Shown here piece by piece: positions 3,367 through 6,868 of a stretch of DNA of 40,854 nt (within the stretch, counting starts at the first letter, position 1; each line of letters starts with the position of its first letter). The notes beneath the pieces are model-generated. The model was not told where the DNA came from and made no database searches. It was given only the letters and a program-made list of their open reading frames with translations. This stretch comes from Kofleriaceae bacterium (GTDB taxonomy: Bacteria > Myxococcota_A > Polyangia > Haliangiales > Haliangiaceae): positions 302,515 through 343,368 of the forward strand of contig JAGPCY010000003.1 in assembly GCA_018057825.1 (NCBI GenBank). Direction: 5' to 3'. Both the position numbers and the translations under genes were made by a program.

Positions 3367-4053
3367 TCACCCGCGGGCGCGGGCCTCGGCCAGCAAGGCG
3401 GCGAGCAGGTCCCGCAGCGCCGCCTCGTCGAGCAGCTCGACCACGCGGGTCGCCAGGGCGCCGGCAAGGTCCCGCGCGACCAGCTCGATCTCGCGCGGCG
3501 CGGCGTCGGCTAGGACCGCGACGGCGGCAGCCAGCGCCGGGCGATGCCACGCGAAGCGCCGCACGAAGAGCTGGATCGCCAGGGTCTGGCGCGCGAACAC
3601 CTCGGCGGTCAGCCGGTAGTCGTCGCCGTCGCGAGTGAGCTCGGCGATCCACCACAGCCGCGCGAACACGTTGCTGTCGTGGCGCACCCCGGGCGTCCAG
3701 TAGCGACTGCGGGTGGTCGACCACGCCTCGAAGGCCCAGCGATGGCGGACGAAGTCGGGCCGGTGGATCACGGCGAGGAAGCGCCACAGCCCCGGCTGGG
3801 CGGCGGCGCGGCGCGACAGCGGCAGCGCGCGATGGACCACCGCGGCGGCGCGCTGCTCGATCACCGGGTCGTGGCGCGGGGTCTCGGCGATGACCTGATC
3901 GAGCGCGCGATCGAGGTCGTCGAGGTCGAGGGCCGGATGGCATTCGTCGAGGAGCTCGGCGTAGACCTCAGGCGGGTGGCGGTCGAGGTCGCCGCGGGCC
4001 AGCGCCTCGGTGACGAGGACATGGCCGTCGGGCACCAGGTGGTGGAGCTTCAC
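3367..4053 (-). CDS. DUF6339-like protein, third gene of the GHKL operon
   Basis: A 228-aa protein starting at a GTG that overlaps the stop of the middle gene by 4 nt. The central block resembles DUF6339: a W-x-FLAV segment, PDFVRHRW, then an R-x-x-N-x-FARLWW-x-AEL signature near residues 125-140 and a GDDYRL turn. It is followed by a helical C-terminus ending in an Ala/Leu-rich helix. It is predicted soluble, with no signal or membrane segment. DUF6339 has no established biochemical activity. From memory, relatives lie near GHKL ATPases, Z1 proteins and DNA methyltransferases in actinobacterial accessory islands. The family assignment is by eye and needs a profile search. It is the last gene of the operon. 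The next gene starts 108 bp further on and looks unrelated. Confidence 0.65.
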   Translation of the reverse strand: MKLHHLVPDGHVLVTEALARGDLDRHPPEVYAELLDECHPALDLDDLDRALDQVIAETPRHDPVIEQRAAAVVHRALPLSRRAAAQPGLWRFLAVIHRPDFVRHRWAFEAWSTTRSRYWTPGVRHDSNVFARLWWIAELTRDGDDYRLTAEVFARQTLAIQLFVRRFAWHRPALAAAVAVLADAAPREIELVARDLAGALATRVVELLDEAALRDLLAALLAEARARG

Positions 4054-5042
4054 GTCAGCTCTCCCGCCAGGCGCTCGGTGGCGTCGGCGATCTCGAGCTC
4101 GACCTGGAGCAGATCGTCGAGTCGCGCCGCGATCGCGGCGTGTTGACCCTCAGCCAGCTCAGCGGCGATCGCGGCGACCCGCGACTCGTGGCCGCGGGCC
4201 TCGGGGTAGAGCCGCTTGAGCCAGTGGGCCAGGGTCGCGTCGTGCCACGGCCACGTCGCCTCGCCGGTCGCCTCGATCGCGCGCGCGGCGTCCCAGAACA
4301 GCCGCGGCCACACCACGAGCGCGAGCTGGGAGTGGACCAGGTTGCGCAGCCGCGCCGCCCGGCCGAGGTTGCCCCGGGCGTTGATCACCGAGGTCGTCAG
4401 CGGATGGTCGGTGTTGATCCACAAGACCGGCTCGTCGCCGCCGAGGTCGAGGCGATACAGCGCGCGCGGCTCGGGGAAGCGCGGCGGTCCCTTGCTCGCG
4501 AAGGACTCTTCGCGGATGTCGAGGTAGTGGCCCTGGGTCGGTCGCGCGGGATCGACGCGGAGCTCCCACGCGGCGCCGCTGGCCAGGCGACTGCCGGCCT
4601 CGGTGGCGAGGCCATCGTCGGCGGCGGGACGCGTGGTCGATCGCACCAGCACCGGCGTCAGCTCGACGACCCCGCGCAGGTCGCCTGCCGCCAGCGTGAG
4701 CGTGTGGTGGGCCTCGCCCAGCGCGCCGGTCGCGACGACGACGGCCCGGCGCAGGCGGGTCTCGGCGCAGGACACGATCACGGCGAGCGACACCGGCGGG
4801 CGCGGGTGCTCGACGAGCGGGAGGGTGAGCCCGGCCAGCTCCGGCCTGGGCGTCACGGTCACCGTGACGGTCAGCGCGGCGGCGCGCGCCAGCGCGACCT
4901 CGACGCCGCGACCGTCGGGGTCGGCGCCGTCGCAGGGTACCGGCCGGCCATCGACGGCGAGCTCGGTCAACCGCAGGGTCAGGCCGTCGTCGACGTGGCC
5001 AAACGGCCAGCCGCGGATCCGACGAGTGGTCGCGGCGGTCAC
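4050..5042 (-). CDS. Unknown protein, middle gene of the GHKL operon
   Basis: A 330-aa protein not recognised as any named family. The GTG start overlaps the ATPase stop (GTGA), and its own stop overlaps the start of the DUF6339-like gene in the same way. The first half (about 1-185) is rich in beta-strand patterns with repeated VTVTV, LPLVEH and SLAVIVSC stretches. A Trp/Tyr-rich middle (about 185-250) contains YRLDLGGDEPVLWINTDHP and an N-x-RGNLGRAARLR segment. The C-terminal third (about 255-330) is helical and ends in a likely coiled coil. There is no signal peptide and no recognisable nuclease motif. Its position between two tightly coupled genes implies a complex or shared pathway with the ATPase. 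Confidence 0.8.
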   Translation of the reverse strand: MTAATTRRIRGWPFGHVDDGLTLRLTELAVDGRPVPCDGADPDGRGVEVALARAAALTVTVTVTPRPELAGLTLPLVEHPRPPVSLAVIVSCAETRLRRAVVVATGALGEAHHTLTLAAGDLRGVVELTPVLVRSTTRPAADDGLATEAGSRLASGAAWELRVDPARPTQGHYLDIREESFASKGPPRFPEPRALYRLDLGGDEPVLWINTDHPLTTSVINARGNLGRAARLRNLVHSQLALVVWPRLFWDAARAIEATGEATWPWHDATLAHWLKRLYPEARGHESRVAAIAAELAEGQHAAIAARLDDLLQVELEIADATERLAGELT

Positions 5043-6868
5043 GTCTCGACCTCACGGCCGGTCACGATCAACGTGACGCTGCGCGGGCCACCGACGGTCG
5101 GCGGCAGCGCGGCGCTGGCCCCGTCGAACACCAGGAGCGGGCCATCGAGGATCACGCGCGCCACGCCGCCGTCGAGGTCGACCGCCGCCGCGGCCGCGAC
5201 GTCGAGGCGCTCGAGGGCCACCGGCGCCAGGGGTTGGCCGTGTTCGTCGGCGACGTGGAGCGCCAGCGTGCACGCCCAGCGCGTCAGTGGCACCGACGGC
5301 CGGACCTGTCCGCGCACGTGCCACCGTCCGCCGGCGAACCAGACCAGGGTATGGCGGACGTGGAAGGCCGCCGGTCCAGCCGCGGCGGCGCCCTGACGGC
5401 CCATCGGGAACAGCTTGCGCAGGCGTTCGGGACCGGCCCGGCCGCGGCGCGGCGCCTCGATCACGACCTGGCGAATGGCCTCGTCGACCTGGGCCTCGAG
5501 CTGGCTCAGGGCCTTGGCGTAGCCGCGCCGGTACTCGGCCTTGAGGGTCGCGGTCGACTCCCACAGATCGTGGCCGGGCGGCTCGGCGGCGCGCAAGAAG
5601 CGCTCGATCGCGCGATCGCCGTCGGTGATCGCCTCAGGCGCGCGGGCCTCACCACACGCGACGACGGCGTGGAACGGTCGGGCCCCGACCGCCAACCGTC
5701 GCCGATCGCCGTAGCGCACGACCATGCCCGGGCCGCGGAACCACGCGATCTCGCCCGCGGCCGAGGGCGCGTCGGCGTCGGCGGCGAGCCGGATGCACAC
5801 CCGGACCACGCCGGTGATCGCCGGCGTTCCGTCGACGCGCTCGGGCACCGCGAGCGTCAGCTCGCGCACCACCACGTCACCCGGCTCGTCGAGGCTGACC
5901 CGGGTCGAGGTCCGGCCGCGGTAGGCCTCGATGAACGGGCGCACCGCCGTGAGATCGCGGTCGGGCACCAGCGGCCGCGGCGCGCCGACCCCCATCCACA
6001 CCGTGAGCGGCGCGCCGGTCATGACCAGGGCCGGCCAGAAGTTGCGCGCGATCGCCGCCTGGACCTCGGCGACCAGCTCGTCGGCGGTGCGCTCGTCAGC
6101 GGTGGTCGGGTCGCGAAAGCCGACGATGGCGATGCTGGTGCCGGTGCTCTCGCGGCGGCCGATCATCAGGTCGCCGGCCAGGGTCGCGGCGGCCGCGCCC
6201 CACACCGACTCGGCGCGTCGCCGCGCGCCGGTGCCGCGCACGTGCCCGAACCAGCCGGCGCCGGCGTAGTGCTCGCCCGCGTGACCGTGGCTCGGCAGCT
6301 CGACGCGCCCGAACAGCCGCGGCGACACCTGCCCTGGGGCCTCGTCCGACAGCGTCGAGTTGAACAGCACCAGCGACAGCCCCGAGAACGCCCACAGCAC
6401 CGACTTGCCGAGCCCGTAGGAGCCGCCGGCCGCCTCGCTCCGCTTGTGGCTGAACAGCGTGTCCTTGCACAGCGCGCGGAAGTGCGAGTCGCCGCGCAGC
6501 TCGTCGCCGGTCAGGCCGACGGTGTGGCGATCCTCGACCACCAGGAGCAGCAGGCGCTGGCGCTGCTCGAGCTCCTCGAGGAACCGCCCGATCGCGCGGC
6601 CGCCGTGGGTCGCGGCGGCGTCCCGCAGGTGGCCGGCGAGGGTCGGCCACCGCGCCGCCTCTTGGAACCGCGTCAGGGCGGCGCCGGTCAGCTCGACGAA
6701 GCGCAGGTGAACCTCGGGAGCCTCGAGCCGCTGGTCGTTGGCGTTCTGCAGGACCTCGCGGACGAACGACGCCAGGCTGGGGCGGAAGACGTGGCTCGCG
6801 GGATCGCCGCCGCGGCGCGCCCCCGAGGGCGGCTCGGGGTCGAAGACCCAGGCGATCGGCTCGCTCAG
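5039..6868 (-). CDS. GHKL (Hsp90/MutL-type) ATPase, first gene of the operon
   Basis: A large ATP-binding protein with a GHKL fold. The N-box REVLQNANDQ (E38, N42, D45 if the start is at 6868), the D-containing box VVEDRHTVGLTG (D113) and the lid GGSYGLGKSVLW are all visible. The C-terminal two-thirds has no match I recognise and ends in beta-rich segments. The coding sequence is continuous back to about 6930, but there is no ATG, GTG or TTG in frame between 6541 and 6930. A GTG at 6541 would delete the N-box. The CTG at 6868 gives LSEPIAWVFDPE, which resembles a natural N-terminus, so it is proposed as the start (609 aa). The 3' end overlaps the next gene by 4 nt. It is related in kind to the MutL-like ATPase of Mza-type defence operons, but no Z1, AIPR or nuclease gene is present. 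Confidence 0.78.
   Translation of the reverse strand: MSEPIAWVFDPEPPSGARRGGDPASHVFRPSLASFVREVLQNANDQRLEAPEVHLRFVELTGAALTRFQEAARWPTLAGHLRDAAATHGGRAIGRFLEELEQRQRLLLLVVEDRHTVGLTGDELRGDSHFRALCKDTLFSHKRSEAAGGSYGLGKSVLWAFSGLSLVLFNSTLSDEAPGQVSPRLFGRVELPSHGHAGEHYAGAGWFGHVRGTGARRRAESVWGAAAATLAGDLMIGRRESTGTSIAIVGFRDPTTADERTADELVAEVQAAIARNFWPALVMTGAPLTVWMGVGAPRPLVPDRDLTAVRPFIEAYRGRTSTRVSLDEPGDVVVRELTLAVPERVDGTPAITGVVRVCIRLAADADAPSAAGEIAWFRGPGMVVRYGDRRRLAVGARPFHAVVACGEARAPEAITDGDRAIERFLRAAEPPGHDLWESTATLKAEYRRGYAKALSQLEAQVDEAIRQVVIEAPRRGRAGPERLRKLFPMGRQGAAAAGPAAFHVRHTLVWFAGGRWHVRGQVRPSVPLTRWACTLALHVADEHGQPLAPVALERLDVAAAAAVDLDGGVARVILDGPLLVFDGASAALPPTVGGPRSVTLIVTGREVET

Follow-up and report, generated by a model that had tools for sequence, protein, structure and literature searches.

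GHKL ATPases such as MutL and MORC dimerize on ATP and close on DNA, and those of the MORC and paraMORC type are widespread in predicted restriction systems, where most have no tested function. Here we describe a three-gene operon in a 40,854 nucleotide stretch of DNA from a Kofleriaceae bacterium (assembly GCA_018057825.1, contig JAGPCY010000003.1, positions 302,515 to 343,368; this whole stretch is referred to below as the window). The operon codes for a GHKL-type ATPase (A), a protein without a family match (B) and a DUF6339 protein (C). The three genes form a real conserved unit that is present in both bacteria and archaea, and we favor, with some reservation, the reading that this unit encodes the three core proteins of a predicted anti-phage system of the restriction-linked kind, which occurs here in a stand-alone form, with A as a clamp and B and C as its partners. 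The genes and their junctions in the window are as follows:

5039-6868, minus strand: gene A, GHKL-type ATPase of 609 amino acids from the CTG at 6868, PDC-M33A / paraMORC2-like (by translation, PADLOC and conserved residues)
4050-5042, minus strand: gene B, 330 amino acids, predicted immunoglobulin-like (Ig-like) beta-sandwich (residues about 15-165) and helical part (about 214-329), no family match
3367-4053, minus strand: gene C, 228 amino acids, DUF6339 / PDC-M33C, nearly all-helical by AlphaFold2, no PDB or BFVD fold match
5039-5042, minus strand: A/B overlap GTGA of 4 nucleotides, B start GTG and A stop TGA
4050-4053, minus strand: B/C overlap GTGA of 4 nucleotides, C start GTG and B stop TGA

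Several described or proposed systems resemble this operon. PDC-M33, a multi-gene phage defense candidate in PADLOC-DB 2.0, is similar in that its models PDC-M33A and PDC-M33C are matched by A (E 1e-18, 65 bits, residues 45-274) and by C (E 4.1e-10), respectively. However, both hits are modest and only partial, no PADLOC model fits B, and a literature search found no paper naming PDC-M33 or DUF6339. A second resemblance is to paraMORC2, which Iyer, Abhiman and Aravind (2008; PMC2292703) described as a GHKL domain followed by an S5-like part, with an ExxxH motif, a sporadic spread, and operons that contain Dcm, Vsr and a superfamily II (SFII) helicase bearing the motif DThhQXuRhFG. A likewise has GHKL motifs with an S5-like part after them, an ExxxH motif (EPPGH) and a sporadic spread, and operons of its relatives contain Dcm, Vsr and a Z1 protein that carries the helicase motif, with DTL[LM]QMGRWFG present in 13 of the 15 Z1 proteins near relatives. 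Relatives thus have the methylase, Vsr and SFII helicase by which paraMORC2 operons are recognized, whereas the window locus and its branch lack a helicase, a methylase and a nuclease, and the text of PMC2292703 makes no mention of B or C. As predicted from its sequence, A fits the paraMORC2 description, the comparison being with the features described in that paper.

The third resemblance is to a putative defense system, Type I, that Miller, Stern and Burstein (2022; PMC9523054) proposed. It has a core of Z1, PD-(D/E)XK and C5-cytosine methyltransferase together with three additional genes, and it is associated with DNA repair endonucleases. Five loci with diverged PDC-M33A proteins (L033-L037) have a matching layout of Z1, DUF4420, A, B and C with Dcm nearby and with HhH-GPD or Vsr in four of the five. 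The three additional genes of the Type I proposal are probably A, B and C, and the Z1 form of the trio is probably Type I. Unlike that system, the window has the three additional genes only, its genome has no Z1 or DUF4420, and its C5 methyltransferases are distant. The first-pass annotation of this DNA had suggested that the operon may be undescribed, a label that has to be dropped given the PDC-M33 matches, the fit to paraMORC2 (PMC2292703) and the Type I proposal with its Z1, DUF4420, C5 methyltransferase and three genes (PMC9523054). The trio is of a kind that is already partly described by these three sources but is unvalidated.

Three further systems are instructive for their differences. 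VcSduA, a Shedu GHKL-nuclease of the paraMORC3 type, is also a GHKL ATPase in phage defense, and its GHKL glutamate is required for anti-phage defense (PMC12137116), a precedent for an essential role of a GHKL ATPase in defense. However, VcSduA contains a DUF4263 nuclease domain, none is recognized in A, and nothing in VcSduA corresponds to B or C. None of the DISARM genes (drmA, drmB, drmC and methyltransferase) is in the window, and Drm genes lie beside relatives. Mza, which Gao et al. reportedly described in 2020 as mzaABCDE, had been raised as a comparison in the first-pass annotation, and aptly so, given that diverged relatives have an MzaC-like Z1 and an MzaD-like DUF4420 adjoining the GHKL gene. 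The differences are that the window genome contains neither Z1 nor DUF4420, that no search was made there for AIPR (mzaE), and that A differs from the MzaB-type GHKL, a separate protein that forms cluster c9 and is found in Streptomyces loci.

A conserved three-gene unit

Genes A, B and C are consecutive open frames in a head-to-tail arrangement on the minus strand, and the annotated three-gene operon with GTGA at both junctions was borne out, with the strand now added. The overlaps are more than chance because a 4-nucleotide NTGA overlap is present at 122 of 184 A/B and B/C junctions of relatives, with a 1-nucleotide type at 17 more. The three products would presumably be made in a fixed ratio. 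A scan for promoters and terminators found none. Upstream of the N-box, gene A has no ATG, GTG or TTG, and the only plausible start is the CTG at 6868. This CTG is the likely start, since it is at about the place of the ATG or GTG starts of relatives, which lie a few codons ahead of a conserved Trp-x-Phe; the alternative is a sequencing error that gave a wrong base.

The distribution of the genes was analyzed in a sample of 379 genomes of the phylum, with A searched by the PDC-M33A model, B by profile and C by PF19866, each separately. A was found in 15 genomes, B in 16 and C in 15, with all three in 13. Among the genomes that did not score for the full trio, a contig end accounts for two (G209 and G179), C in G029 was just under threshold and was located next door by the family profile, and two contain diverged genes, G151 with B and C adjacent and G088 with B only. 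The trio is thus present in about 4% of the sampled phylum genomes with a patchy spread, and within this set it is absent from the two genomes of the same genus and the four of the same family that were sampled. Named genomes, when scanned, yielded 72 loci, 66 of them new relative to the earlier set, that span Myxococcota, haloarchaea, Actinobacteria, Gammaproteobacteria, Gemmatimonadota, Kuenenia and Thermoleophilaceae. Over all loci, 89 of 104 A copies or fragments have B and C next to them in that order and in the same orientation, and the exceptions are mostly contig edges or broken copies. Five plasmids also carry A (four haloarchaeal and one cyanobacterial), and no relatives of A were found in phage records or viral contigs.

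The first-pass annotation had proposed that the three genes act as one unit, to be doubted if they were never found together in other genomes, and had suggested a search for the same gene order elsewhere. The order is conserved across bacteria and haloarchaea, extends to the five plasmids and is often near defense genes, so the proposal stands. What is new here is the demonstration that A, B and C make up their own unit, archaea included.

Some loci depart from a single intact trio. Broken A copies, or sequencing errors, are seen in Nannocystis pusilla (L094 9929-11829, several frames) and in G372 (L016 8957-10790, two frames). Haloarchaea often have two or three diverged trios grouped around a single DrmMII-type methyltransferase, frequently in divergent orientation, and some of their second A copies have no ExxxH motif. 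The loci with multiple trios are L056, L057, L059, L060, L063, L065-L068, L072 and L073, and the multiple haloarchaeal trios possibly form hetero-complexes.

Motifs of A and predicted structures of B and C

Protein A contains the following motifs, all on the minus strand of the window:

6731-6763, minus strand: N-box VREVLQNANDQ, residues 36-46, with E38 and N42 invariant
6506-6535, minus strand: D-box EDRHTVGLTG, residues 112-121
6404-6427, minus strand: ATP lid GGSYGLGK, residues 148-155
6137-6142, minus strand: GHKL motif IV Gly-Thr (G243 T244), in the stretch that hhalign pairs with MutL motif IV
5570-5584, minus strand: EPPGH, the paraMORC2 ExxxH motif, with E429 and H433 invariant in 47 relatives

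The N-box, D-box and lid are those that the first-pass annotation had read in this gene, and they are indeed present and conserved when measured across 47 diverse relatives. In the N-box R37, E38, Q41, N42 and D45 are invariant; in the D-box G121 is invariant with D113, G118 and L119 kept in at least 90%; the lid glycines G149, G152 and G154 are invariant; and in motif IV G243 is invariant with T244 in at least 90%. R378, E429, P430, H433 and W436 are also among the invariant positions, and EPPxHxxW is present in 87 of 92 relatives of A. The N-box Glu and Asn, D-box Asp and Gly, glycine lid and motif IV that together define the GHKL superfamily occur in A in that order. The motifs, their order, the PDC-M33A match and the literature context all point to A being a GHKL ATPase. 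Sequence searches of PDB, run with A by itself and with a profile of each of the three proteins, gave nothing meaningful. In actinobacterial and a few other copies (L098, L111, L086, L080, L088 and L089), an N-terminal XRE-type helix-turn-helix is fused to A over about the first 70 residues. This fusion points to DNA-related work, possibly autoregulation or DNA recognition.

C had been likened to DUF6339 in the first-pass annotation, and it matches Pfam DUF6339 (PF19866) at 51.6 bits versus a gathering cut-off of 23.2 (E 1.3e-13). B had been left unrecognized and it remained so, with no match in Pfam, NCBIfam, PADLOC (none at E 10) or PHROGs. Of the structure predictions that had been suggested, for the three proteins singly and as a complex, those of B and C were run singly with AlphaFold2, and neither model gave an informative PDB match. 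The B model (predicted local distance difference test score, pLDDT, 92.0; predicted template modeling score, pTM, 0.65) is an Ig-like beta-sandwich with a helical C-terminal part. Its fold search gave generic Ig-like sandwich matches only (Z up to 8.1, residues 15-165), with the helical part barely tested. The C model (pLDDT 96.2, pTM 0.91) is nearly all helical, and its fold search gave no credible match in PDB (best Foldseek E 1.4) or BFVD (best E 0.6), with comparison to PDB by VIA giving Z up to 5.7 over the C-terminal helices only. A new fold for C was considered and was not accepted as proven by the lack of PDB and BFVD fold matches. Conserved residues are D/E66, H74, R81, W90, R105, R132, W134 and E138 in C and P13, R98, F181 and N210 in B. 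These sets look unlike known nuclease sites, and B and C may have some other activity.

Methyltransferase-linked relatives and a stand-alone myxobacterial branch

Gene neighborhoods were compared at 79 loci, the window included, with flanks of at most about 10 kb and with a simple gene caller, both of which make absences less certain than presences. A C5-cytosine methyltransferase is present in the flanks of 58 of the 79 loci (gene clustering identified 56 of them and a profile the other two, L078 and L088, with the identity given by Pfam), and these linked loci are from Actinobacteria, haloarchaea, Gammaproteobacteria, Gemmatimonadota, Thermoleophilia and Myxococcota. Other recurrent neighbors are Vsr, HhH-GPD glycosylase, Z1 ATPase (MzaC-like), DUF4420 PD-(D/E)XK (MzaD-like), Sacsin-helicase, UvrD and the DISARM genes DrmA, DrmB and DrmC. 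On the Synechococcus plasmid pIITB6_1, the trio, with its DUF6339 gene C, and a DNA cytosine methyltransferase directly downstream of C make up four consecutive genes, and on haloarchaeal plasmids the trio is accompanied by a methyltransferase and by DISARM-type genes. Two unrecognized families also recur beside haloarchaeal trios, c7 (L068 6987-7760) at 13 loci and c13 (L068 5396-6922) at six; c7 has no Pfam match, and neither has a PADLOC match.

The window belongs to a part of the family that lacks these partners. In a tree of A it falls within 14 rows (support 99), or 15 rows together with L013 (support 89), all of which are from Myxococcota and related delta-group genomes. No methyltransferase was found in the fetched flanks of this 15-row branch, nor by a profile scan of the neighbors; the neighboring group in the tree, from haloarchaea, is always methyltransferase-linked. 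Fourteen genomes were tested for DUF4420 and Z1, eight of them of the stand-alone type (the window's branch and G365) and six of the diverged type. All eight stand-alone genomes lack DUF4420 and all six diverged-type genomes have it, while Z1 occurs in one stand-alone genome (G218, where it is unlinked) and in five of the diverged type. The myxobacterial branch does without the usual methyltransferase and nuclease partners, and the members that were compared, which are from different families, are 43-57% identical to the window with intact frames and all catalytic residues kept. The existence of this stand-alone branch is new here. The statement in the first-pass annotation that there is no nuclease, helicase or methyltransferase is true of the window copy, where neighbor profiles found none; its suggestion that the system is minimal holds for the myxobacterial branch only and fails for most relatives, which adjoin a C5 methyltransferase.

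When neighbors of stand-alone trios were compared with PADLOC, the matches were mostly generic ones of Ser/Thr kinase type, with DISARM genes beside L045 and PbeA-type helicases at two loci. An empty-site comparison with a congener gave no clean insertion site, as the flanking genes are scattered there. The window genome has two C5 methyltransferases far from the operon (G000:C12:189957-191006 and G000:C5:87719-88747). A link between these and the operon was rejected as unproven, the C12 methyltransferase having its own partner genes. As a separate observation, L119 7643-16023 (G000:C12, about 188-197 kb) is a second restriction-like cluster composed of a C5 methyltransferase, a methyltransferase-like gene and a GHKL protein (HATPase_c_3 8e-10), with a transposase-like gene nearby. 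The window also contains seven CTCGGT/GAGACC-type hexamer repeat arrays in 41 kb, mostly intergenic, that represent a recurrent spacer element of the genome:

1-111, 16839-16927, 24020-24179, 27261-27382, 33570-33787, 37624-37728 and 40580-40844: hexamer repeat arrays

Proposed mechanism and rival explanations

The unit with its order and coupling, the conserved ATPase residues, the patchy spread and the methyltransferase and defense genes near relatives are results of this analysis; beyond these, we infer complex formation, DNA clamping, defense and each effector step along the following lines. A would dimerize upon ATP binding through its GHKL domain and close as a MutL/MORC-type clamp on DNA, as expected from established GHKL biology (MutL and MORC; Iyer et al., 2008). 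B, with its Ig-like sandwich and helices, and C, helical and highly conserved, should be partners of A because they are never found far from it, and by binding A they would make the closing of the clamp depend on foreign DNA being recognized. Once loaded, the complex of relatives would permit a linked nicking enzyme (Vsr or HhH-GPD) or the Z1/DUF4420 nuclease to act, while the C5 methyltransferase would mark self. In the window branch, where no linked effector is recognized, the effector would have to be the loaded clamp itself, an unrecognized activity of C, or an unlinked nuclease. Judged from sequence and gene context, a defense role of the trio is likely, while the clamp-with-adaptors mechanism may as well be wrong as right.

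Several results weigh against a restriction-linked clamp. None of the 47 A proteins matched any HATPase family, HATPase_c_3 included, in a Pfam scan, and hhalign of A against a MutL-rich profile pairs motif IV only (E 5.6e-4, with a probability of just 29.7%), so that the GHKL label rests on the motifs together with PADLOC and the literature. The neighbors of the window copy are ordinary chromosomal genes (T2SSE ATPase, glutamine amidotransferase and 2-oxoglutarate oxygenase) and do not make up a defense island, most stand-alone relatives have no recurrent neighbors, and no effector was recognized in the stand-alone form.

The missing effector can be accounted for in other ways. The defense role could be the same, with the operon relying in trans on a methyltransferase or nuclease encoded elsewhere in the genome, for which the two C5 methyltransferases of the window genome would be candidates. 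We regard this as unlikely given that at least the C12 enzyme has its own partners, a second methyltransferase-like gene and a different GHKL protein, and that stand-alone genomes differ from diverged-type genomes in DUF4420 and Z1. C itself could also be the effector of an abortive-infection or toxin type of system, in which A and B sense infection by an ATP-driven rearrangement and release or activate C so that the infected cell stops growing. The polar set of C (D/E66, H74, R81, R105, R132 and E138) on a confidently predicted fold without a PDB or BFVD match makes an enzymatic activity conceivable, and related Z1 systems carry AIPR, which PMC9523054 calls an abortive infection protein. However, no known toxin motif is present, no antitoxin logic is evident, and the C5 methyltransferase link of relatives suggests self marking by modification rather than suicide, which makes this explanation rather unlikely.

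The two remaining rivals dispense with defense altogether. GHKL proteins include MutL and gyrase, and the window neighbors are ordinary genes, both of which would suit a housekeeping or DNA maintenance role such as mismatch repair or chromosome topology. Such a role is nonetheless very unlikely for a trio that is in so small a fraction of the sampled phylum genomes and in none of those sampled from its genus and family, yet is spread across distant phyla, archaea and plasmids and repeatedly adjoins Dcm, Vsr, Z1 and DISARM genes. The operon could instead be the decaying remains of a system once linked to a methyltransferase, its partners and its function now lost, a history to which the lack of Dcm in the branch, the split A frames of L094 and L016 and the unusual CTG start of the window copy would lend themselves. 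This is highly improbable because intact frames and catalytic residues have been kept over the divergence of the 15-row branch, among members from different families.

The reading that we favor, a restriction-linked three-protein core, places the trio in contexts that range from full Z1, nuclease and methyltransferase systems to the stand-alone form. A bolder version, which we hold to be doubtful, is that the stand-alone operon is a complete nuclease-free immune machine, in which an ATP-driven MORC-like clamp, an Ig-like adaptor and a DUF6339 subunit would trap or silence invading DNA without cutting or methylating it. If true, bacteria would have an equivalent of eukaryotic MORC silencing, one that diverged from ancestors linked to a methyltransferase. 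The stand-alone branch offers a chance to study a GHKL ATPase and its two partners free of nuclease and methylase.

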